Shown: in pieces, positions 3,422-16,666 of the stretch | Numbering within the stretch: the stretch's first letter is position 1 | Layout: each line of letters opens with the position of its first letter | NCBI GenBank assembly: GCA_001512665.1 | Contig: LFSF01000027.1 | Span: 1 to 33,235 of the forward strand | Length of the DNA: 33,235 bases | Direction of reading: 5' to 3' | From: Clostridiales bacterium DTU073 | GTDB taxonomy: Bacteria; Bacillota; Peptococcia; DRI-13; DTU073 | Program-made: the position numbers and the translations under genes | Notes under the pieces: generated by a model | What the model saw: the letters and a program-made list of their open reading frames with translations, nothing else | Database searches by the model: none | Told to the model about the DNA's origin: nothing

Positions 3422-3450
3422 TTGACATACAGTTGAAGGTGCAGTAAAAT
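3422..3450 (+). promoter_or_regulatory. Sigma-A-type promoter P1 upstream of gntR
   Basis: TTGACA (3422-3427), 17-nt spacer, TAAAAT (3445-3450); near copy at 7689-7717. Confidence 0.75.
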
Positions 3451-3511
3451 ACAAGTGAAAAACAATATTAACCATGTTAATATACATAGAGATTTTTGTG
3501 GGGTGTATCTA

Positions 3512-4150
3512 TTGAAAAAAAGTGAAAAGGAAAATGTTTTCCTAGATTTACGAAACAAAATAATGAACTTGACATATAAACCAGGTACGATGTTGAGCGA
3601 AATTAATTTGGCTTCGGAGTATAATGTCAGTCGATCAATAATTAGGGATGTTCTTAGAGAAATAAAAGATTACGGATTTATCGAAACGATACCTAGAGGC
3701 GGAACGTATATCACGGAAATTGCAATGAAGGATTTTAGGGATATCTTCGAAGTAAAGTCAGAATTAGAAGGTTTAGCGGCTGAGTTAGTTGTAGAACGGA
3801 TAACCTTAGAACAAAAAAATGCATTTAAAAAGTTAGTGGATAAAATTCAAAACGGAAATAGTTTTAAAATGTCTCAGGAAGATTACATTGAATATGATGA
3901 GAAGTTTCATCAGCTCATGCGTGATGCCAGCGGCAATAAGGAATTAGCTCGTCTTTTGGAGAATTATCATATCCGCTGCACAAGATTGTGGTATTATATT
4001 TCTACTGATATTCCTGATGATACCTTTAAAGAAGACTATATTAATTTTTATGAACAAGGTGTAGTTCCTCAGAATACGGTAAGGGCAAAAGAGATCATGC
4101 GTGGTCATACTGCTAAATTTGTAAATTTAATAAAAATTAAGATTTTCTAA
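3512..4150 (+). CDS. GntR-family transcriptional regulator with FCD domain
   Basis: wHTH (LASEYNVSRSIIRDVLREIKDYGFIETIPRGGTYI) plus FCD domain. The ORF-track start 3455 lies at the predicted TSS, so TTG 3512 is preferred. Confidence 0.85.
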   Translation: MKKSEKENVFLDLRNKIMNLTYKPGTMLSEINLASEYNVSRSIIRDVLREIKDYGFIETIPRGGTYITEIAMKDFRDIFEVKSELEGLAAELVVERITLEQKNAFKKLVDKIQNGNSFKMSQEDYIEYDEKFHQLMRDASGNKELARLLENYHIRCTRLWYYISTDIPDDTFKEDYINFYEQGVVPQNTVRAKEIMRGHTAKFVNLIKIKIF

Positions 4151-4229
4151 AAACTTTATATTTCGCCGCCAAGCTAAAAGGTATAAAGTTTTTAGCAATA
4201 AAATAAAATTGTTTCCCGGGCAATTGCTC
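4147..4229 (+). ncRNA. Structured leader element copy 1: 14-bp stem with conserved 19-nt loop, then CCCGGGC hairpin
   Basis: CTAAAAACTTTATA (4147-4160)/TATAAAGTTTTTAG (4182-4195) around TTCGCCGCCAAGCTAAAAG; GGGCAATTGCTC at 4218-4229. Confidence 0.6.
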
Positions 4230-4347
4230 TATTTTATACTCTTTTTTAGGGAATTCCTTGTGAAGAAAATTAATATAAAACTTATCTTATAATATAGTAG
4301 GATTTAGGTTTATATGATAATATACCAAATTACCATCATTTTTAAAT

Positions 4348-4459
4348 AAGCTGTCGAAAATTTTTGATGTAAATATTCTGTCAATTAATTACGTTTGTGT
4401 ATTTATGCACATAAATGAAAAAAATTTCCAGAAACATTATAAAAAAATTTCGACAGCTT
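4348..4459. repeat. Inverted-repeat-bounded intergenic segment
   Basis: AAGCTGTCGAAA (4348-4359) vs TTTCGACAGCTT (4448-4459), perfect 12 bp, extended A/T-rich. Confidence 0.6.
4401..4416. promoter_or_regulatory. Dyad ATTTATG-CA-CATAAAT, candidate operator
   Basis: Perfect 7-bp arms with 2-bp centre, upstream of dctP. Confidence 0.35.
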
Positions 4460-4603
4460 TTATTACGTTTATTAAGGAGGTGATTTATAAAAGATAACAG
4501 TTTAAGACATCTTAAGACATCGTAGAAATTTATAAGTAGAAGTAAAGGTGTAATGCAAGTCCGTATTCATTAATCAAAAAAGAGATTAATTGGAGGGAAT
4601 AGG

Positions 4604-5635
4604 ATGAGAAAGAGAAGTAAATTAATAAGTATTTTCTTAATTGCCATAATGTCTTTGACCTTAATCGCCGGTTGTGGAGGCGGAGGCGGTGGCGAAGCTG
4701 AAGATAAAGTTACTATTCGTGTAGCTGCTCAAGACCCCGAAGGTCATCCTAATATTGATGCCTTGAATGAAATCAAAGCCAAGGTCGAAGAAGAAACTAA
4801 TGGCCGTATTGAAATGAAGATCTATCCTGCTAACCAGTTAGGGGATTATTCACAGGTTTATGAAGAAGTTATGAAGGGTTCCATTGAAATGGCTCTAATT
4901 ACTATTCCTACTCAATATGATGCTAGATTTGAAATGATGGCTATGCCCTACTTGGCTACAAACTATGACCAAGCTAAGAAAACTTTCCTGCCGGATTCAG
5001 TTTTCGGACAAGAGTGGGGTAAATTTCATGAAGGTTTAGGAGTTAAATTCTTAGGCTTCTCCATGACCGGAGGAGTTGGAATTACTACGACGAAACCATT
5101 AAAAAATGTGGAGGAACCTCTTAAAGATAAAGGCGTCATGATTAGAATCCCGCAAATGGAAATTTGGAAACATACTATGGCGGATATGGGCTTTAGAAAC
5201 GTGGGTATTCCTTACGCTGAATTATACACCTCTTTACAAACCGGTATTGTTGATGGAAGTATTGGTACTTCTCCATTAGACACATATTCAACAGTTAGAG
5301 ACGTAGTTAAATATTATTATCTCTATAATGTTTTCTATGACAACATGTCCTATATTATGAACAAAGATCTTTTCGATTCTTTGAAGCCTGAAGAACAGCA
5401 ATTATTTGTTGACCTCTGTAGGGAATATAACATTAAGAGTATTGAAAGAGCCGAAGCTACTGATGAAGAATATCTAAAGAAGCTTCATGATGAAAAAGGC
5501 GTTGAGATCGTTGAAATACCACAAGAAGCTTTGGATGCTTTCGCTAAGCAAATTCGTGAAAACACTTGGAACAAAATGGAAGAACGTTTAACTTCTGATT
5601 TGCTGAACAAGTTAAAAGCTTCCGTAGGTTTGTAA
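4604..5635 (+). CDS. dctP: TRAP transporter substrate-binding lipoprotein, DctP family
   Basis: Lipobox LIAGC; DctP motifs NQLGDYSQVYEEVMKGSIEMAL, KGVMIRIPQ, conserved LQTGIVDGSIG. Confidence 0.93.
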   Translation: MRKRSKLISIFLIAIMSLTLIAGCGGGGGGEAEDKVTIRVAAQDPEGHPNIDALNEIKAKVEEETNGRIEMKIYPANQLGDYSQVYEEVMKGSIEMALITIPTQYDARFEMMAMPYLATNYDQAKKTFLPDSVFGQEWGKFHEGLGVKFLGFSMTGGVGITTTKPLKNVEEPLKDKGVMIRIPQMEIWKHTMADMGFRNVGIPYAELYTSLQTGIVDGSIGTSPLDTYSTVRDVVKYYYLYNVFYDNMSYIMNKDLFDSLKPEEQQLFVDLCREYNIKSIERAEATDEEYLKKLHDEKGVEIVEIPQEALDAFAKQIRENTWNKMEERLTSDLLNKLKASVGL

Positions 5636-5680
5636 TAATGATGTCATTACTTGATTAAATAGTAAATGATCAGTCTAAGA

Positions 5681-5714
5681 GTAGAAGATGTATCACTTTT
5701 TGTACATCTTCTAC
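5681..5714 (+). other. Intercistronic hairpin between dctP and dctQ
   Basis: GTAGAAGATGTA/TACATCTTCTAC perfect 12-bp stem. Confidence 0.65.
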
Positions 5715-5749
5715 CTTTGACTTAATCCATTGGAAAAGGAGGGAATAAA

Positions 5750-6295
5750 ATGGGAGAAACAGCTAATAAAATACACATTATTAATAGAGATGGCGTTTTT
5801 TGGAAGGGCTTGCTGCTGTTTCAAAGGGTGATTATGGCAATTACCAGTATTATGGTTGTCGGGCTTATATCTTATGGAGCTGCTATCCGCTATATCTTTG
5901 AGAAGGATTTTTATGGTGTAGAGGATATAGTTTTATTGGTTGCTTTCTGGATGTATTTTATTGGAGGTTCGTACGGTAGCTTTAGAAAAACTCACATTAG
6001 TGCTGAGGTTATCCCTAATTATATTAGGAATAAGAAAGCTAAAAGTTTTGTCAGACTTGTTGTTTCAGTTTGTACAACCCTCTTATGCTTTGCTCTTACT
6101 TTTTGGGGCTTTTTATTAATTTTGTGGAATCTTGAATTAATGCCTACTACTCCGGCATTAGGGATACCTGTTGTCTGTTCACAAGGGGCTATTTTTTTAG
6201 GTCTTTTGCTTATGAGTTTTTACACCGCCGTTTATACCATTGAAGATTTCCGATCATATAAATTGACCGGTGAGCTGTTTTCTTTCGAAGATTAA
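5750..6295 (+). CDS. dctQ: TRAP transporter small permease, DctQ family
   Basis: Four-TM protein between DctP and DctM genes; DctQ-like FWMYFIGGSYGSFRKTHISAEV. Confidence 0.9.
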   Translation: MGETANKIHIINRDGVFWKGLLLFQRVIMAITSIMVVGLISYGAAIRYIFEKDFYGVEDIVLLVAFWMYFIGGSYGSFRKTHISAEVIPNYIRNKKAKSFVRLVVSVCTTLLCFALTFWGFLLILWNLELMPTTPALGIPVVCSQGAIFLGLLLMSFYTAVYTIEDFRSYKLTGELFSFED

Positions 6296-6312
6296 AATTA
6301 TGAATTGAGGAG

Positions 6313-7620
6313 GTGAATGCGGTGTTAGTTGGTATAGCACTAGGTATTTTAATTGTATGTTTGTTATTTGGTATTCCGGTAGCTTTTTCTTTCATGGCTG
6401 CCACAATCTTTATGGTTTTTATGCAAGGATATGACCCCACATTTTTATTGCCGTATGGCTATAGTAAGCTTAATTCGATGACTTTGTTGGCTATTCCCTT
6501 GTTTATTGTTACCGGTAATTTAATGAACAATGGTAATATCGGGGACAAACTGGTTGATTTTGTTGATGCCTTTGTAGGTAGGATCAAAGGTGGACTGGCT
6601 GTTGTCACAACAGTTACTTGTGCAATCTTTGGCTCAATAACCGGGAGTGCTTTTGCAACTGCATCCTGTATTGGTTCTATTATGAAGCCTAAGCTTCTAG
6701 AGGGAGGATATTCCAGGGGGTTTATTGGTGCCCTTTTAGCTAATTCCTCGATTCTGGGTCTATTGATTCCACCCAGTGGAATAATGATTATATACGCCTG
6801 GTTAGGTAGACAGTCTGTTTTAGCTACTTTTTTGGCGATTGTGGCTCCGGGTATTTTAATGACGATTCTCTTGTCGTTAGTCAGTCTCTTCTTATTAAGA
6901 AAAGATAAAAATGTAAAGGTCATGGATAAAATGCCTTTAAATGACGTAGCAGTTATGGCTGCCAAAAGAGGGGTAAAAGCATTCCCAGCTTTACTTTTAC
7001 CGATAATTATCTTAGGCGGTATTTATGGCGGGTTTATGACTCCGACAGAGGCCGCTGCCGTAGGGTCAGTATATGCTATCCCTGTTGGTTTCCTGATTTA
7101 TAAAGGACTGAATTGGAAGAACTTTAAAGAAACTTTAATCGAATCAGCAGAAACAACCGGTGTAATAATGGTAATGTTCTTTTCGGTTATGATTCTTAGC
7201 CGTATTTATGTTATGGAAGATTTACCCGGCAAGATTATGAATATCTTAATGAGTATTTCTGATAATAAATTAGTTATTTTATTAATGCTCAATATCTTTA
7301 TGATTATCTTTGGCATGATCATGGATGATGTCAGTGCTTGTTCGCTGTGTACGCCGATTCTTCTGCCTATAGCCATGGAGATAGGTGTTGATCCGGTACA
7401 TTTTGCTGCGATCTTAGCTGTAAACTTAGGTATGGGTAATATTACACCACCGACAGCACCTTTGTTATATGTAGGAGGGAGTATGGCGGGAGCCTCGCTT
7501 GATGAAATGCTAAAGCCGGCAATGATGTTTATTCTCTTTGCCTGGATCCCGACTTTGATTGTTACAACCTATTTCCCATCTTTTGCCATGTGGCTTCCTA
7601 ATTTAGTTTTAGGTCAGTAG
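6313..7620 (+). CDS. dctM: TRAP transporter large permease, DctM family
   Basis: DctM motifs IPLFIVTGNLMNNG, GSITGSAFATASCIGSIM, NLGMGNITPPTAPLLYV. Confidence 0.95.
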   Translation: MNAVLVGIALGILIVCLLFGIPVAFSFMAATIFMVFMQGYDPTFLLPYGYSKLNSMTLLAIPLFIVTGNLMNNGNIGDKLVDFVDAFVGRIKGGLAVVTTVTCAIFGSITGSAFATASCIGSIMKPKLLEGGYSRGFIGALLANSSILGLLIPPSGIMIIYAWLGRQSVLATFLAIVAPGILMTILLSLVSLFLLRKDKNVKVMDKMPLNDVAVMAAKRGVKAFPALLLPIIILGGIYGGFMTPTEAAAVGSVYAIPVGFLIYKGLNWKNFKETLIESAETTGVIMVMFFSVMILSRIYVMEDLPGKIMNILMSISDNKLVILLMLNIFMIIFGMIMDDVSACSLCTPILLPIAMEIGVDPVHFAAILAVNLGMGNITPPTAPLLYVGGSMAGASLDEMLKPAMMFILFAWIPTLIVTTYFPSFAMWLPNLVLGQ

Positions 7621-7688: not shown

Positions 7689-7717
7689 TTGACATACAAG
7701 TGAATGAGCAGTAAAAT
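7689..7717 (+). promoter_or_regulatory. Sigma-A-type promoter P2, near copy of P1
   Basis: TTGACA (7689-7694), 17-nt spacer, TAAAAT (7712-7717). Confidence 0.75.
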
Positions 7718-7853
7718 ACAAGTAACAATAGAATAGGAAAGGAAGATAAGTACTAAGAAAATCTATAAAAATATTTACCTCCCTCTAAGTAAGAAATAAA
7801 TATTATTAATATAAATATAGGTTGATTAGTACTTTATCTTTATTAGACAGTGA

Positions 7854-7886
7854 TTTTTTAAGCAGATAGTGGTTGTGCTTAAAAAA
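7854..7886. other. A/T-rich hairpin in long leader
   Basis: TTTTTTAAGCA/TGCTTAAAAAA perfect 11-bp stem. Confidence 0.5.
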
Positions 7887-7940
7887 ATAAAAACCAGAGA
7901 TAAATATCCCTGCTTTTTATCTAAACGATAACTAAATTTC

Positions 7941-8005
7941 GGCACTTCTTATAATTCGCCGCCAAGCTAAAAGTTATAAGAAGCGCCGCCCGGGCGATAT
8001 TGCCC
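7941..8005 (+). ncRNA. Structured leader element copy 2
   Basis: GGCACTTCTTATAA/TTATAAGAAGCGCC (one A.C mismatch) around TTCGCCGCCAAGCTAAAAG; followed by CCCGGGCGATATTGCCC. Confidence 0.65.
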
Positions 8006-8166
8006 TATTATTTATTATACCTATTATGTATTTTACTGTCAATAGATGAAAGGGGGAATCGGGCTTAAAGCGGGTTACAGTAAAAGGTTATTGAAAAGAG
8101 TCGTTTTTGTAAAAGAGGATGTAAAAACGCTAGGTAAACAAAAAAATTAAATTAGGAGGGTGTTTT

Positions 8167-9195
8167 ATGGATAAGTTAGAGTATCGTGAATGGATTAATT
8201 CAAAATTAAACATTGGTAAAGAGATTTTATATCTTACTATGGATGAATGTATTAACTCTGGTGTAACAGTTGAAGAAGTTATCGATTATACAGAGCTAGC
8301 TTTAATTGCACATGGAAAAAAAGAACTTGATATGCCGGCTAAGATAGGTCTTCATCCGTACAAAGATACCTTCATGCATGCTATGCCTTGCTATATTCCC
8401 AGTGTAAATTCGATGGGAATTAAATGGGGTGGCTGCTGGCCTACAAACAGAGAACGTTATGGCTTAACTCAGTTATCCGGTTTGTACGTTCTCAATGACC
8501 CTGAATCCGGTTGGCCTTTGGCAATTATGGACTGCATCTGGTTGACTGCTCAGAGAACCCCGGCTGTAACTGCTGTAGCAGCAAAATACATGGCCTTCCC
8601 GGAAAAAGTAGAAACCTTCGGGATGATCGGATGTGGCGCACAAGGTTATCAGCATATTAGATATATGCCCAAGACCTTACCTAATTTAAAGAAGATTTAT
8701 ATTTATGATTTGTTTGAACCCGCTATGGATCGTGTTGTTAATGAATTACAGGCTTCTACCGCAGCTCAGATTGTAAAATGTAAGTCGATCGAAGAATTGG
8801 TAAAGAGCAGTGAAGTATTTGCTACAGCAACAGTTATTACTTCTAAACCTGAACCTAAAATTAAAGATGAATGGGTTTCTAAGGGACAAACAATCCTGAT
8901 GTGTGACTGCCATTCCTTATTTGAAGATAAAACTATGAAACGTGCGGACAAATATTATGTTGATAGTATTGACCAACATACTCTTTTAACTGAATATGGC
9001 TATTATCCGGATGGTTTGCCGGAGATCGTTGCTGAAACCGGTGAAGTTGTGGCCGGATTAGCTAAAGGTAGAGATAACGATGAACAACTAATTGTTGATA
9101 ATAATGTTGGTTTAGCAGCAGAAGACGTACCGGTAGCTAAAGCTATCTTTGATAAAGCTCTGGAAAGAGGGATGGGAAGAAAGCTTCCTCTATAA
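8167..9195 (+). CDS. Ornithine cyclodeaminase/mu-crystallin family protein
   Basis: GIKWGG, DPESGWPLAIMDCIWLTAQRTPAVTAVAAKYMA, Rossmann GMIGCGAQGYQH. Confidence 0.88.
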   Translation: MDKLEYREWINSKLNIGKEILYLTMDECINSGVTVEEVIDYTELALIAHGKKELDMPAKIGLHPYKDTFMHAMPCYIPSVNSMGIKWGGCWPTNRERYGLTQLSGLYVLNDPESGWPLAIMDCIWLTAQRTPAVTAVAAKYMAFPEKVETFGMIGCGAQGYQHIRYMPKTLPNLKKIYIYDLFEPAMDRVVNELQASTAAQIVKCKSIEELVKSSEVFATATVITSKPEPKIKDEWVSKGQTILMCDCHSLFEDKTMKRADKYYVDSIDQHTLLTEYGYYPDGLPEIVAETGEVVAGLAKGRDNDEQLIVDNNVGLAAEDVPVAKAIFDKALERGMGRKLPL

Positions 9196-9256
9196 TATCA
9201 ATAAATATTTAATGAGAGAGCTTTTTACGATTGTACTTTGAACTATTTTGCGGTTG

Positions 9257-9303
9257 GTTTCGTAAAAAAAAGGGGAGCTTTTCCCCCTTTTTTTTACCGA
9301 AAC
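9257..9303 (+). terminator. Rho-independent terminator (possibly bidirectional)
   Basis: GTTTCGTAAAAAAAAGGGG-AGCTTTT-CCCCCTTTTTTTTACCGAAAC. Confidence 0.8.
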
Positions 9304-9370
9304 GCTTATACCCCATTTTATTCCTTATGGCAACATTGATTAGAAAATATAAAAAAAAGGGGTGGGATAT

Positions 9371-9577
9371 TTGATACAACTGGACATTGAAAGATGTAAA
9401 GGTTGTGAATTATGCACTATGGCTTGTCCAGTGAACATCTTGGTCTTAAGTCAAGAACAGGCAAATTCTAAAGGAAATGCAATAATTGAGGTAACAGAAC
9501 CGGAAAAATGTACTTCCTGTGCTAGGTGTGCACAAATTTGCCCGGATACTGCCATAACAGTATATAGAAACAAATAA
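9371..9577 (+). CDS. 2-oxoacid:ferredoxin oxidoreductase delta subunit (2x[4Fe-4S] ferredoxin)
   Basis: CKGCELCTMACP and CTSCARCAQICP; first gene of the delta-alpha-beta-gamma set; TTG 9371 preferred over GTG 9362. Confidence 0.88.
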   Translation: MIQLDIERCKGCELCTMACPVNILVLSQEQANSKGNAIIEVTEPEKCTSCARCAQICPDTAITVYRNK

Positions 9578-9598
9578 TAGAACTCGTAATAGGAGGAA

Positions 9599-10675
9599 AT
9601 GATGATGGAGAAAGTTCTGATGAAAGGAACTGAGGCTATCGGCGAAGCCGCCATTAGAGCAGGATGTAGAATCTATTGTGGCTATCCGATTACTCCCCAG
9701 AGTGAATTGTTGGCCTATTTAGCTAAAAAAATGCCACATATAGAAGGTGCATCTTTTTTACAATCCGAAAGTGAAGTTGCTGCAATTAATATGATCTATG
9801 GAGCAGCCGGAGCTGGAGCAAGGGCAATGACTTCTTCGTCCAGTCCCGGGGTTAGTCTAAAACAGGAAGGTATTTCCTATATAGCCGGTGCGGAACTGCC
9901 TTGTGTAATTGTTAATGCTTCTCGTGGAGGCCCAGGGTTGGGTAGTATTCAGCCGGCTCAATCCGACTATTTTCAAGCTACTAAGGGTGGCGGACATGGG
10001 GATTATCGTTTGATAGTTTTAGCACCTAAGTCTGTTCAGGAAATGTATGATTATACTTTTGACGCCTTTGACTTAGCTGATAAATATCGTACTCCGGTCA
10101 TGCTTATGTGTGACGGAGCTTTAAGCCAATTGATGGAACCTGTGGTTTTAAAGGATATTGAAGTTAAAAAATATGAGAAACCATGGGCTACTACCGGAGC
10201 CAAAGGAAGGAAGCCCGTGCTGGTGTCTTCTTTACGGATCGATCCAGCTGATATGGAAAAACAAAATGACCATCTCTTTGAAAAATACGAGAAAATTATC
10301 GCTAATGAAGCTCGTTATGAGTCAACTTGTAATGCTGATACAGAGTATGTAGTAGTAGCATATGGGATTATGGCTCGTATTGCTCAAACGGCAATCAAAA
10401 AGTTGCGTCAGGAAGGAATTGAGGTTGGTTTAATCAGACCGATTACCTTATGGCCGTTCCCAGTGCAGGCGTTTGATGGATTAAGAGATCAGGCCAAATT
10501 ATTTATCTCGTTAGAATTAAACAAAGGACAAATGGTTGAAGATGTCAGACTCGCTGTAAATGGTAAAGCACCGGTAGAATTTTATGGTAGAAGCGGGGGC
10601 ATGATGCCTAAACCTGATGAAATTGTAGAGGTAATAAAAAGAAAGATAAGCGGGGTGGAAAAATGCAACAAGTAA
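9599..10675 (+). CDS. 2-oxoacid:ferredoxin oxidoreductase alpha subunit (VorB/KorA-like)
   Basis: [42 protein letters not shown]. Confidence 0.92.
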
Positions 10676-11403
10676 TTTTTAAGAGACCAGAGATTTTGAC
10701 GGATGCATTTACGCATTATTGCCCCGGTTGTGGACATGGAACCATTCATAGATTAGTAGCCAATGCCATTGATGATTTACAAATTCGTGAAAAGGTTATT
10801 GGTGCTGGTCCTGTTGGCTGTTCGGCGATGATTTATGATTATCTCGATGTAGATTTTCAACAATCTGCACATGGTCGGGCACCTGCTGTAGCTACAGGAA
10901 TTAAAAGAGTCTCACCGGAAAATATTGTTTTTACGTATCAGGGCGATGGTGATTTAGCTTCAATTGGAACAGCGGAAGTAATTCATGCTGCTGCTAGAGG
11001 CGAGAACATTACAGTTATTTTTGTTAATAATGCTATCTTTGGGATGACCGGTGGTCAGATGGCACCTACCACCTTATTAGGACAAAAAACCCAGACGTCT
11101 CCGGAAGGCAGAGATTTAACCACTCAGGGATATCCTTTACGGGTGTGTGAACTTTTGAATACTTTAGATGGAGTTGCTTATTTGGCTAGAGTATCTGTGC
11201 ACGATGTCAGGAATGTCTTACAAGCCAAAAAGGCGATAAAAAGAGCATTTGAAACACAGATTGAGAAGAAAGGCTTTTCGTTAGTAGAGGTGTTATCTAT
11301 CTGCCCGACAAACTGGGGAATGAAACCTAAACAAGCTATTCAATGGCTCGAGGAAAATATGACGGCATATTATCCATTACAAGTGTTCAAGGACTGGAGG
11401 TGA
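10663..11403 (+). CDS. 2-oxoacid:ferredoxin oxidoreductase beta subunit (TPP-binding)
   Basis: [19 protein letters not shown] motif [12 protein letters not shown]...[12 protein letters not shown]. Confidence 0.93.
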
Positions 11404-11407
11404 GAAA

Positions 11408-11953
11408 ATGCATCATGAGTTAATGATTTGTGGAACTGGGGGACAAGGTGTTCTGTTAATTGGTCATTTACTGGCTCATGCTGCCATGCTGGAAAATAAG
11501 TATGTTACTTGGTTACCTTATTATGGACCGGAAAAAAGAGGCGGAGAAGTAAATTGTTCCATAGTTGTGTCTGATGAAGAAGTCGGTTCTCCGATTATTA
11601 CGGCTCCTAATGAAATGATCGCCATGGATTTATCTAAAGGCAAGGTCGAAGAGTTGGCCAGTCCCAATGCCTGTTTCTTTTATAATGAATCAATGAAAAA
11701 CAGAGAATTTACCAGAAATGATCTAGAATTCATCCCGATTGATGCCAATGCAGCTGCTAAAAAAATAGGGAACATCAAGGTGGCCAATTTAGTGATTTTA
11801 GGTGCATTTATCGCTAAAACGGAGATTGTTTATTTGGATTCTGTTATTGCTGCTATGGAGGAAATGTTTAAAGGCAAGAGTGATAAGGTTCTAAATATGA
11901 ATAAAGAGGCTCTTTTGATGGGGCGGGAACTAATGCTTTCACCAAAGGCTTAG
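11408..11953 (+). CDS. 2-oxoacid:ferredoxin oxidoreductase gamma subunit
   Basis: GTGGQGVLLIGHLLA, YGPEKRGGEVNCSIVVSDEEVGSP. Confidence 0.92.
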   Translation: MHHELMICGTGGQGVLLIGHLLAHAAMLENKYVTWLPYYGPEKRGGEVNCSIVVSDEEVGSPIITAPNEMIAMDLSKGKVEELASPNACFFYNESMKNREFTRNDLEFIPIDANAAAKKIGNIKVANLVILGAFIAKTEIVYLDSVIAAMEEMFKGKSDKVLNMNKEALLMGRELMLSPKA

Positions 11954-12002
11954 TAAAAGAACAAAGATAATACAGCAAAATAAAAATCAAGGAGGCGAAG
12001 TA

Positions 12003-13457
12003 ATGAAGACCAGAAATGATTATTTAAGTTCACTTACAGCAATGAAACCAAACATGTATAAGTTTGGAGAACAGATTACCAATGTTGTTACACACCCGGC
12101 AACCAAGCGTACAGTAGAAAGTCACGCTCGTGCTTTTGACGCAGCTAATAATCCGGAATTAGAAGAATTATTTACGACTACTTCATATCTAAGCGGAAAA
12201 AAGATTATGAGATTTAATAGTTTAATGAAGTCTCCTGAAGATCTTTTGAATAATGCTAAGCTAAAAAGAGAGATGTACCGCATGACAGGTACATGTGCAG
12301 GTGGAGTATGTGTTGGTTGGAACGCTATGAACGTAATGTGGGCAGTTACCCACGAAATAGATGCTGAATATGGTACCGATTATCAAGAACGTTTGAAAAA
12401 TTGGATCTTGAAAGCAGAGGAAGAAAGTTTACTTGTTGCTGCAGCTTTAACTGATGCTAAAGGTGACCGCAGTAAAAAACCTAGCCAACAGGATTGTCGC
12501 AATGCCAATGTTCATATTGTAGAAAAGAGAGAAGACGGTATTGTAATCAGCGGGGCAAAAGTGATGATCTGTGGTGTAGCTGCTTCTAATGAAATCTTCT
12601 TGTTGCCCGGTGGCGGATACAAAGAAGATGATGCAGATTTTGCAGTAGCTTGTGTTGTACCCAGAGATATTGAAGGCCTAACGATTGTAGAAACACGTAG
12701 ACCCAGTGATGGCAGAGAATATGAAGAAGGTTTTGATATTCTTGATACCGGGATTACTCAGGCTTATCTGCTCTTTGATAAGGTCTTTGTACCAAAAGAG
12801 AGAGTGTTTATGGCCGGTGAATATAAGTATACCGGTAAAGTTGTTCAATATTTCACTGCCAATTATCGTGCTTGTATCGGCGCATGTGTAGCCGGACAGG
12901 GAGATGTGATGATTGGTGCTGCTGCCTTGATGGCTCGTGCTAATGGTCTTTCTATGAAAAAGTTTAAAGATAAATTTATTGATATGTCTATCAATAACGA
13001 AGTTACTTATGGTGTTGGTATTTCCGCTATGACTTTAGGTAAAGCTCATCCTTCCGGCGTTTGGATTAGCGATGATTTGATGGCTCATACCAATAAAACA
13101 CTCGTCGGAAAACTTCCTTATGAGACGAAACGGATATGTCAAGACATTGGCGGCGGTGTAGTAGAGACAGGCTGTCTGCCTTCAGCTAAGGATTTTGAAC
13201 ATCCGGTTTATGGACAGTATATACAGGATGTATTTAAAGCCGGAAATGTTTCAAGTATCGGCAGGGCTAAAACGGCTCGCTTAATCGAATGGCTTACCTT
13301 AGGTGCCGGCGTACCTGGTTGTATGCACGGTGGTGGCTCACCTGACGGGGCAAGACTAGTTATTAATGCGAAAATCCCTTATGAAAAATACATTGATTAT
13401 GCGAAGAAAATCGCAGGTGTTGACGAAGAGACGGAGGACCCAGGCGCGAAAAAGTAA
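12003..13457 (+). CDS. 4-hydroxyphenylacetate 3-hydroxylase/4-hydroxybutyryl-CoA dehydratase family protein, altered ligand set
   Basis: Full-length similarity to AbfD-type proteins (DYLSSL...YKFGE, GDRSKKPSQQ, IVEKREDGIVISGAK, GDVMIGAAALM, C-terminal MHGGGSPDGARLVI); C98/C103 and C291/C295. Confidence 0.85.
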   Translation: MKTRNDYLSSLTAMKPNMYKFGEQITNVVTHPATKRTVESHARAFDAANNPELEELFTTTSYLSGKKIMRFNSLMKSPEDLLNNAKLKREMYRMTGTCAGGVCVGWNAMNVMWAVTHEIDAEYGTDYQERLKNWILKAEEESLLVAAALTDAKGDRSKKPSQQDCRNANVHIVEKREDGIVISGAKVMICGVAASNEIFLLPGGGYKEDDADFAVACVVPRDIEGLTIVETRRPSDGREYEEGFDILDTGITQAYLLFDKVFVPKERVFMAGEYKYTGKVVQYFTANYRACIGACVAGQGDVMIGAAALMARANGLSMKKFKDKFIDMSINNEVTYGVGISAMTLGKAHPSGVWISDDLMAHTNKTLVGKLPYETKRICQDIGGGVVETGCLPSAKDFEHPVYGQYIQDVFKAGNVSSIGRAKTARLIEWLTLGAGVPGCMHGGGSPDGARLVINAKIPYEKYIDYAKKIAGVDEETEDPGAKK

Positions 13458-13581
13458 TAATATTCCTTCCATGATAAAAGTTTATCACAAGTTCTTAGAA
13501 AAAATGTTTTCAAGATAACCAAATGTATGATAATATTAATTAATAATAACAGAAACATAATAATAAAAAGGAAGTGATATT

Positions 13582-14730
13582 ATGAATTTTAATTTCACGG
13601 ATGAACAAGAAATGCTAAGAAAAGCGGTACGCGAATTTGTGGAAGCAGAAATTGCTCCAAAGGCAGCAGAGTGGGATGAAAAAGATGAATGTCCGGTAGA
13701 ATTATTCCCGAAAATGGGTCAGATGGGTATCACCGGGATCTTTGTTCCCGAGGAATATGGTGGAGCCGGTTTAGGCCATGTGGAAAGAGCTATTTGCTTA
13801 GAAGAGATTTCCCGCCATTCTGCAGGACTAGGTATTGCTCTGATGACTCACCATTTAGGTACAGACCCAATTTTAAAATTTGGTACACCGGAACAAAAAG
13901 AAAAGTATCTGCCTGATATTGCTTCCGGGAAAAAGATTGCCGGACTTTCCGTTACAGAGCCCGGTGGCGGCTCAGATTTTATGGGTCAAAAAGCTACCGG
14001 AGAATTAAAGGATGGTAAATGGGTAATTAATGGCCGGAAATGTTTCATTACTAACTCGGCTGTGGCTGATGTTGATCTTTGGATTGTTAATACCGGCACA
14101 AACGAAAAAGGACGTCCGCTTCTTTCGACCTTTATTATTGATAAAGATACTCCTGGTCATAAGCCTGGTCGGAAGGAAAACAAGCTAGGCTTGAGAGGCT
14201 CTGTTACCGGAGAAATCATTTGTACAGATGTGGAACTAGGTCCGGAACAATTATTGGGTAAAGTCGGTGATGGTGCGAAAGCCGGAATGGGCGCAATCGG
14301 AGAAGTTGGTCGTGCCGGAATGGCCGCAATTAGCGTAGGGGTTCTGGGTGCTTGTTTAGAATTAGCGGTTAAATTCGCTAACGAACGTATCCTCTACGGC
14401 AAACCAATTGCCAAATTACAAGCAATTCAATTTGATGTAGCAGAAACACGTGTAGAATATGAAGCGGCCAGATTATTGCTCTATCGTGCTGCCAGCATGA
14501 AGGATGCCGGTATCCCATGTGCTAATGAATTCTCAATTGCTAAATACTATGCTTCAGAAGCTGCTTGCCGCGCTGCTAAGAGAATCATGGATATGATGGG
14601 CGGTTATGGCGTTATTAATGAATACCCAATCGGACGTTACTTGAGAGATGCTCAAGCGATTATTCCAGCGGGTGGAACTACTCATATTCAGAAAATGATT
14701 ATCGGTGCTAATACTTTAGCGGGTAAATAA
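13582..14730 (+). CDS. Acyl-CoA dehydrogenase family protein, non-canonical active site
   Basis: GLSVTEPGGGSDF, KCFITNS, RILYGKPIAKLQAIQF, MMGGYGVINEYPIGRYLRDA; catalytic-Glu position is Gly. Confidence 0.92.
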   Translation: MNFNFTDEQEMLRKAVREFVEAEIAPKAAEWDEKDECPVELFPKMGQMGITGIFVPEEYGGAGLGHVERAICLEEISRHSAGLGIALMTHHLGTDPILKFGTPEQKEKYLPDIASGKKIAGLSVTEPGGGSDFMGQKATGELKDGKWVINGRKCFITNSAVADVDLWIVNTGTNEKGRPLLSTFIIDKDTPGHKPGRKENKLGLRGSVTGEIICTDVELGPEQLLGKVGDGAKAGMGAIGEVGRAGMAAISVGVLGACLELAVKFANERILYGKPIAKLQAIQFDVAETRVEYEAARLLLYRAASMKDAGIPCANEFSIAKYYASEAACRAAKRIMDMMGGYGVINEYPIGRYLRDAQAIIPAGGTTHIQKMIIGANTLAGK

Positions 14731-14781
14731 AAAATCAGAAAAAGTAGGGAGAATGGCGTAAGCCATTCCCCCTCTGATTTT
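14731..14781 (+). other. Intercistronic hairpin between acyl-CoA dehydrogenase and etfB (attenuator/stabiliser candidate)
   Basis: AAAATCAGA...TCTGATTTT outer arms; inner GAATGGC-GTAA-GCCATTC. Confidence 0.6.
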
Positions 14782-14799
14782 AATGAAGGAGGAAATAAG

Positions 14800-15651
14800 G
14801 TGAGTCTAAAGATTGCCGTATGTATTAAACCGGTGCCGGATCCGGATTATTATGATCAAATTACTATCGATCCTGTGCGGAAAACCATAACTAGAGCGGG
14901 TATTCCTACAATAATTAATCCGGTAGATAAGAACGCTTTGGAAGCTGCCTTACAAATTAAAGAACAGGTGGGGGGAACAGTTACAGTTATTACAATGGCT
15001 CCTCCTAACGGCGAAGAAAGCTTAAGAGAAATGTTGGCTATGGGTGCGGACGAAGCTTGTTTGTTGACAGATAGGGCCTTTGGGGGTGCCGATACTTTAG
15101 CAACATCGTATACTCTAGCGCAAGGTTTGAAAAAACTAGGAAACTTTGATCTCGTTTTTACGGGAACCGAGAGTGCTGACGGGGCTACAAGCCAGGTGCC
15201 TTCACAATTGGCCGAATGGTTGGGTATGGCGCATTTATGGAATGTTTCTGAGATAAAATTGAAAGAAGACCAGGCTGAAGATAAGGTACAAGAGCTTCAG
15301 GCCAAAATGAAAATTGAGAATGGATATATTGAATATGAGGTAAAACTCCCGGCTGTTTTAGCAGTTTCCCGTGATCTTAATACACCGCGTTTTACTTCGA
15401 TTATGGGTGTAATGAAAGCCAAAAAGAAACCTTTAACGGTATTTACGGTTAATGATGTAGATGTAGATAGAACACTAATTGGTTTGGATGGGTCGCCAAC
15501 GAAAGCCGGTGCGGTATTTACTCCCTCTTTAAGCAGAAAAGGCGAAAGACTTACCGGTGATCTGGATGAGGTTGTTGAGCAATTGTTGCAAAAATTACGT
15601 GCTGCAGGTATTAATTTAGAAATTAAGAGCAGCAGTCAGGGAGGGAGGTAA
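14800..15651 (+). CDS. etfB: Electron transfer flavoprotein beta subunit
   Basis: MSLKIAVCIKPVPDPDYYDQITID, NPVDKNALEAALQIKE, GTESADGATSQVPSQLAEWLG. Confidence 0.93.
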   Translation: MSLKIAVCIKPVPDPDYYDQITIDPVRKTITRAGIPTIINPVDKNALEAALQIKEQVGGTVTVITMAPPNGEESLREMLAMGADEACLLTDRAFGGADTLATSYTLAQGLKKLGNFDLVFTGTESADGATSQVPSQLAEWLGMAHLWNVSEIKLKEDQAEDKVQELQAKMKIENGYIEYEVKLPAVLAVSRDLNTPRFTSIMGVMKAKKKPLTVFTVNDVDVDRTLIGLDGSPTKAGAVFTPSLSRKGERLTGDLDEVVEQLLQKLRAAGINLEIKSSSQGGR

Positions 15652-15655
15652 AAGG

Positions 15656-16666
15656 ATGGACATTGGTGCTTGGAAAGGAATTTGGGTTATTGCTGAACAA
15701 ATTGAGGGAACCATCAATTCCGTTAGTTTTGAATTACTAGGTAAGGCTAAGCAACTGAAGGAACAACTTAAAAGCTCTGAACCGGTTACTGCAGTGCTTT
15801 TGGGTAGTGACATTCAAGGTTTAGCTGATGAATTAGGTCAGTATGGTGCGGAAGAAGTCATTGTAATTGAACATGAAAAATTAGCTATTTTTGAAAATGA
15901 CACTTATGCTGCTGTGCTTAACGATTTAATCCAAGAAAGAAAGCCGGAAATTGTTTTAATGGGGGCTACAGCTATTGGGCAAGATTTAGCGCCAATGCTA
16001 GGTGGTATCTTGAAAACAGGGGTAGCAGCTCATTGTGTGGATGTTAATATTAATGAAGAAGGAAAATTTGTGGCAGTAGTACCGGCCTTTGGCGGTAAGG
16101 TGCTCGGAGATATTTTCTGCCCTGACCATAGACCACAGATGGCGACTTTAAAGCCAGGGATATTAGGAGAACCTGTTTTAGATAAAAATGCTGTTTTTAA
16201 GGTGACTGCTTATAATGCGGAAGAATCATTAAAAAAAGTTACAGGCAGAGTAAAAGCTGTAGGTATTTATAAGAATGAGATTCAAGGTATTCCTCTGGAA
16301 AAAGCTGAGGTAGTCGTTGTTGGTGGTTGGGGGATAGGCAGCAAAGAAAATTGGAGTTATATTGAGGAATTGGCGACACTCTTAGGAGGTGCAGTCGGTT
16401 GTACGCGTCCGGCTGTTGACGAAAACTGGGCTGAGGGCGAACATCAAATGATTGGTACCAGTGGAAAATCAGTGCGTCCTAAGGTTTATATCGGTGCCGC
16501 TGTCTCTGGATCTACACATCATCTTTGTGGGATGAAGGATTCAGGTTTAGTAATTAGTATAAATACTGATGAAAATGCTCCTATATTTGACTCTTCTGAT
16601 GTTTGTATAGTAGCTGATGCTGCTAAATTTTTACCCAAGCTGATTGAACGAATTAAGCAGGCTTAA
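15656..16666 (+). CDS. etfA: Electron transfer flavoprotein alpha subunit
   Basis: C-terminal FAD domain VVVGGWGIGSKENW...GTSGKSVRPKVYIGAAVSGSTHHLCGMKDSGLVISINTDENAPIF. Confidence 0.93.
   Translation: MDIGAWKGIWVIAEQIEGTINSVSFELLGKAKQLKEQLKSSEPVTAVLLGSDIQGLADELGQYGAEEVIVIEHEKLAIFENDTYAAVLNDLIQERKPEIVLMGATAIGQDLAPMLGGILKTGVAAHCVDVNINEEGKFVAVVPAFGGKVLGDIFCPDHRPQMATLKPGILGEPVLDKNAVFKVTAYNAEESLKKVTGRVKAVGIYKNEIQGIPLEKAEVVVVGGWGIGSKENWSYIEELATLLGGAVGCTRPAVDENWAEGEHQMIGTSGKSVRPKVYIGAAVSGSTHHLCGMKDSGLVISINTDENAPIFDSSDVCIVADAAKFLPKLIERIKQA

Follow-up and report, generated by a model that had tools for sequence, protein, structure and literature searches.

A putative antisense RNA opposite the leader of a catabolic operon, with a candidate second target in the leader of a transporter operon

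Described antisense RNAs and the locus

Most of the familiar kissing-loop antisense RNAs belong to plasmids or to toxin-antitoxin loci. The YUNR U-turn motif has been reported to be general in loop-loop antisense systems, in the recognition loop of either partner (PMC6562991; PMC4485353), and a UUGGCG loop motif is named for the ColIb-P9 antisense pair in the title of Asano 1998 (reference 19 of PMC10724649). SprA2AS of Staphylococcus aureus is presented in one account as a type I antitoxin RNA that acts both in cis and in trans (PMC6393315).

The element compared with them here occurs twice in the window (the whole 33,235-nt stretch of Clostridiales bacterium DTU073 that was analysed), once upstream of TRAP transporter genes and once upstream of an OCD-family gene (Table 1). 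Like CopA/CopT of R1, Inc RNA/RepZ mRNA of ColIb-P9, RNAI of other I-complex plasmids and the pIP501 antisense RNA, it would place a short RNA with a long hairpin opposite a leader, and it has in common with plasmid copy-control RNAs a UUGGCG/CGCCAA recognition loop with the YUNR motif. It differs from them in belonging to chromosomal catabolic operons with no replicon, and in its proposed second, trans target. Here the antisense strand carries the motif, whereas in ColIb-P9, going by the title of Asano 1998 (PMC10724649), it is in the target loop, so that the roles are swapped. Type I antitoxin RNAs such as SprA2AS, as that account has it, resemble the present case in being encoded opposite one locus while a duplicated related locus is a possible target; here, however, a toxin gene is absent and the targets would be metabolic operon leaders. 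With Firmicutes riboswitches the element shares a conserved loop, a variable covarying stem and a leader position, but it differs from them in its lack of an Rfam match, its narrow range and the promoter and terminator on the opposite strand.

The preliminary description, made from the letters alone, had matched the element to no riboswitch class and proposed an Rfam scan; on neither strand did any family reach its cut-off for either copy. Among Rfam models of bacterial RNAs, CopA and MicX come nearest. CopA (RF00042) gives 16.9 bits on the plus strand against a cut-off of 60, and the element is not a member. The MicX model of Vibrio cholerae (RF01808) aligns end to end with window positions 8018-7886 on the minus strand (31.5 bits, cut-off 75), nearly the exact extent of the proposed antisense RNA, the likeness consisting of a 5' hairpin, a long hairpin with a UUGGC loop and a terminator; the gene context differs, and the model has no match in the same-family genome Peptococcaceae bacterium UBA5356 (contig DHPU01000076.1). 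The MicX resemblance is probably one of shared shape only. On the antisense reading, the element is best called a plasmid-copy-control-like chromosomal antisense RNA with one cis and one trans target.

Table 1. Features of the locus, in window coordinates
Feature	Coordinates	Strand	Basis or remark
gntR promoter, with block shared with OCD promoter (TTGACATACA...GCAGTAAAATACAAGT), likely GntR operator	3422..3456	+	11/12 promoter match
gntR, GntR/FCD transcription regulator	3455..4150	+	Pfam GntR and FCD
Element copy 1 (TRAP copy), hairpin, 19-nt loop 4162-4180	4147..4195	+	proposed trans target in gntR-TRAP mRNA
Second conserved block of copy 1, CCCGGGC-N4-GCTCT	4215..4230	+	
TRAP transporter genes dctP, dctQ-like, dctM	4604..7620	+	Pfam DctP, DctM; middle gene by position and size
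OCD operon promoter, carrying the gntR-promoter block	7689..7723	+	
Proposed antisense RNA, ~125 nt, read from 8007 to about 7881	7881..8007	-	promoter, terminator, fold
Predicted intrinsic terminator of antisense RNA, CAGGGATATTTATCTCTG then GTTTTTATTTTTTT	7881..7912	-	
Element copy 2 (OCD copy), hairpin, loop 7955-7973	7941..7987	-	minus-strand CUUUUAGCUUGGCGGCGAA with UUGGCG
Second conserved block of copy 2	7989..8006	-	5' hairpin GGGCAATATCGCCC of proposed antisense RNA
Predicted antisense promoter TTGACA-N17-TATAAT	8014..8042	-	12/12 consensus; single in window; ortholog in UBA5356
OCD-family gene, VorB-like 2-oxoacid:ferredoxin oxidoreductase subunits, HpaB/AbfD-type dehydratase, acyl-CoA dehydrogenase, two ETF subunits	8167..16666	+	

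A covarying stem around a kept loop

The two window copies carry an identical 19-mer, TTCGCCGCCAAGCTAAAAG (4162-4180 and 7955-7973), which has no other match with up to three mismatches in the whole 1.67-Mb genome; shuffled sequences give 0.03 matches at that tolerance. Around this loop, the arms of copy 1 (4147-4160 and 4182-4195) form 14 perfect pairs, with an additional inner U.G pair possible, and those of copy 2 (7941-7954 and 7974-7987) form 13 pairs and one A-C mismatch, which on the minus strand becomes a G-U pair. Both copies give the predicted fold first described. The exactly shared loop, the 14-bp stems with one mismatch in the second, the common downstream CCCGGGC block (4215-4229 and 7989-8005) and the overlap of copy 1 with the gntR stop codon (4148-4150) had all been proposed in the preliminary description, and all were borne out. 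Copy 1 lies ~400 nt upstream of dctP, and 160 nt separate the end of copy 2 from the OCD gene.

Three further copies occur at orthologous places in UBA5356, one between gntR and dctP and two in tandem upstream of OCD, with the same gene order. The OCD identity of the two genomes is 79-84%, so their intergenic DNA is considerably diverged. Across the five copies, changes on both sides are seen in 8 of the 12 stem pairs, giving a covariation score of 0.64 compared to 0.28 in shuffles (none of 500 shuffles reaches 0.64), and slid registers score 0.25 at most. Because of this covariation, the hairpin is, as judged from its sequence, a selected structure and not a chance repeat. Compensatory evolution had already been claimed from the two window copies, which are insufficient for it; the claim holds once the three UBA5356 copies are added. 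The plus-strand consensus (from an alignment padded with N, one extra T of copy g2 being omitted) consists of a stem of at least 12 pairs, UUCGCCGCCAAGCU(U)RAAAG, the second arm, and then CCCGGRC-N4-6-GCYCU, 2-4 nt after the second arm (about 22 nt in copy 1). A pseudoknot between the loop and CCCGGRC, for which three invariant pairs were found by inspection, had no covariation support and was set aside.

A new plus-strand riboswitch would have the loop as its ligand pocket, the GGRC...GCYC hairpin with its U-rich tail as its expression platform and the tandem UBA5356 pair as a cooperative arrangement. A stem that covaries around an almost invariant loop (in two genomes and one regulon) is in keeping with such an element, as is the R-Y covariation seen in the second block across the five copies; one hairpin and a four-pair terminator would nevertheless make a very small switch, and the lack of an Rfam match at cut-off also speaks against it. 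The distribution of copies bears on the same question. A covariance-model search had been suggested as a check, and the model built from the five copies, the three in UBA5356 among them, gave no other convincing match when run on 299 relatives, 46 class members and 399 phylum members (overlapping sets). In these sets there are thus no copies in other genomes or operons beyond the loci of the window genome and UBA5356, which counts against a riboswitch; occurrence in one family only, and beside these operons only, is no less to be expected of a pairing RNA than of a metabolite aptamer.

Several other candidates were discarded. A weak match (21 bits) in one genome (G001) looks like an unrelated intergenic hairpin. 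Loop-only patterns with three mismatches gave chance-like matches in the relatives except in UBA5356, control patterns being about equally frequent. Among the matches listed from a gapped-pattern scan of contigs, only the UBA5356 contig was real and the rest were chance matches in G+C-rich genomes; the scan was poorly designed and may miss distant copies. None of the eight loop matches in viral contigs is flanked by a comparable stem. The OCD homologues of two other genomes (G129 and G150, about 50% identity) have neither the element nor a TRAP neighbourhood. A mobile or repetitive element was ruled out on a count of two copies in the DTU073 genome, both within one regulon.

Signals on the minus strand

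The 33-kb window has a single perfect sigma-A promoter (0.03 expected), on the minus strand immediately past copy 2, and the 17.9-kb UBA5356 stretch, L033, has one (0.01 expected), at the same place. When the two OCD leaders are aligned, the minus-strand TTGACA and TATAAT hexamers are kept while the spacer has diverged. Transcription from this promoter would pass through the second block first and the hairpin next. In both genomes a minus-strand hairpin is then followed by TTTTATTTTTTT, and neither leader has another T-rich tract; the terminator hairpin is CAGGGATATTTATCTCTG in the window and the second element copy itself in UBA5356. Read on this strand, the loop, CUUUYAGCUUGGCGGCGAA, can close further as UUU-(bulge)-GCU-UGGC-GGC-GAA, with its variable site in the bulge, and all five copies hold UUGG, a YUNR motif, within it. 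It would seem likely from these signals that a minus-strand RNA exists.

The preliminary description had read the element as a riboswitch-like leader of the plus strand. That does not stand as stated, since the promoter and terminator signals of the OCD copy indicate the opposite strand. Every copy does lie between a co-regulated plus promoter and genes, the U-rich stretches after GCYC could provide a weak plus-strand terminator, and plus-strand terminator-like signals are predicted at both promoter-proximal OCD copies; a riboswitch would still leave the conserved perfect minus promoter and the minus terminator unexplained, and we regard it as unlikely. These two signals would also remain unexplained if the plus-strand hairpin were bound by an RNA-binding antiterminator or a processing enzyme, with operon-specific attenuation or mRNA processing as the result. 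Such binding would agree with the long variable stem and unchanging loop that both co-regulated leaders carry, but the ten operon genes covered include no candidate for the RNA-binding protein, and this explanation is improbable.

Wobble pairs offer a further indication of strand. In the TRAP copies, U-G pairs are possible on the plus strand only, and copy 2 of the window pairs in full on the minus strand only; of the UBA5356 copies, g2 has one plus-only and one minus-only wobble, and g3 is perfect. Predicted hairpin energies agree with this pattern, since reading the TRAP hairpins on the minus strand makes them less stable. The numbers are small (five mismatches in two genomes), but the pattern is what one would expect if the OCD locus encoded a minus-strand RNA and the TRAP locus its plus-strand target.

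Alternatively, each copy might make a minus-strand RNA of its own that acts in cis only, one lying opposite the OCD leader and the other opposite the 3' end of gntR. A minus-strand TATAAA is indeed kept near the TRAP copies at a similar distance (TATAAAATAGAGC in the window, TATAAAAATAGAGC in UBA5356). However, the minus strand has neither a -35 hexamer nor a T-rich tract at TRAP, and the TRAP hairpins lose stability when read on it. Furthermore, though at a single site, within each genome the loops of the TRAP copy and the promoter-proximal OCD copy agree at the one substituted position, as cross-pairing would have it. Two cis-only RNAs therefore have little probability.

Probable shared regulation and a proposed mechanism

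The plus promoters of gntR and OCD are near-identical, and the block TTGACATACA...GCAGTAAAATACAAGT is found at only these two sites in each of the two genomes. Because the block is unique to them, the TRAP-side and OCD operons are probably both under the neighbouring GntR protein, and the block, likely its operator, is a ready-made prediction. The gntR promoter reads through copy 1 towards TRAP, and the OCD promoter through copy 2 towards OCD. It had been noted at the outset that both copies sit in leaders of the same pathway; put more exactly, they belong to two operons with common promoters, and so probably to one regulon. The element itself was ruled out as a GntR operator, its stem sequence being unconserved.

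We favor, with a probability of roughly 55%, an antisense RNA with two targets, the OCD leader, on which it would act in cis, and the TRAP leader, on which it would act in trans. The predicted strong minus promoter opposite the OCD leader would yield an RNA of ~125 nt with a 5' hairpin, a long hairpin and an intrinsic terminator, and the loop of the long hairpin would expose 5'-UUGGCG-3', a U-turn kissing-loop motif. This RNA would pair in cis with the OCD leader. The TRAP leader could be a trans partner as well, bound first through loop-loop kissing and then by extension, because the same loop and CCCGGRC...GCYC block are present in the gntR-TRAP intergenic region. Complementarity of the RNA to the TRAP leader extends over 32 nt in the window (score 63, compared to 43 for the best of 200 shuffles) and 46 nt in UBA5356 (93 compared to 44), although, as a necessary consequence of duplication, it is no proof of pairing; the predicted hybrid with the TRAP leader in DTU073 does not rank first among 120-nt segments by raw duplex energy. 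It also speaks against this reading that the second block is conserved at TRAP, where a minus promoter is not evident.

The likely effect would be less leaky expression, with the leader either terminated prematurely or cleaved by an RNase; both are likelier than direct blocking of ribosomes, since 160-400 nt lie between the sites and the start codons. The OCD and antisense promoters are convergent. Once induced, the plus promoters, presumably GntR-controlled, would titrate the antisense RNA and, through convergent transcription, interfere with its promoter, and the OCD and TRAP operons would be released jointly. The covarying structure, the conserved promoter and terminator, and the shared plus promoters are read directly from the sequence; from there on, we infer the transcription of the RNA, its pairing, the direction of its effect and the coupling of the operons.

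More tentatively, and with somewhat less than even probability, a chromosomal antisense RNA may have been made a two-operon regulator by the copying of its recognition hairpin into a second leader, a plasmid-style kissing-loop control that would coordinate nutrient uptake and breakdown atop one transcription factor. If true, this shows how simply a cis antisense RNA can acquire another target: its hairpin is duplicated, and the stems then drift around an unchanged loop. A GntR-linked catabolic regulon of uncultivated Firmicutes would, moreover, have an additional layer of RNA control. A covarying leader element need not be a riboswitch, and the opposite strand deserves a promoter check.

From the gene set at 8167-16666, an amino or oxo acid would seem to be imported and fermented via a hydroxyacyl-CoA. 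Outside the family, the nearest OCD relatives (about 50% identity; L221 8796-9830 and L222 8892-9914) are, as judged by eye, near MttB-like genes, and these neighbors, of the trimethylamine-methyltransferase family, are a hint that methylated amines or betaines are the substrates of this OCD branch. A second long inverted repeat is found downstream of the TRAP copy, at about 4346-4462 of the window (AAGCTGTCGAAA...TTTCGACAGCTT). Its UBA5356 counterpart, at about 5541-5616 of L033 (AAGCAGGACACTAAA...TTTAGTGTCCTGCTT), occupies a similar place with a quite different sequence, and these TRAP-side repeats may form another structure in the leader, for instance a terminator.
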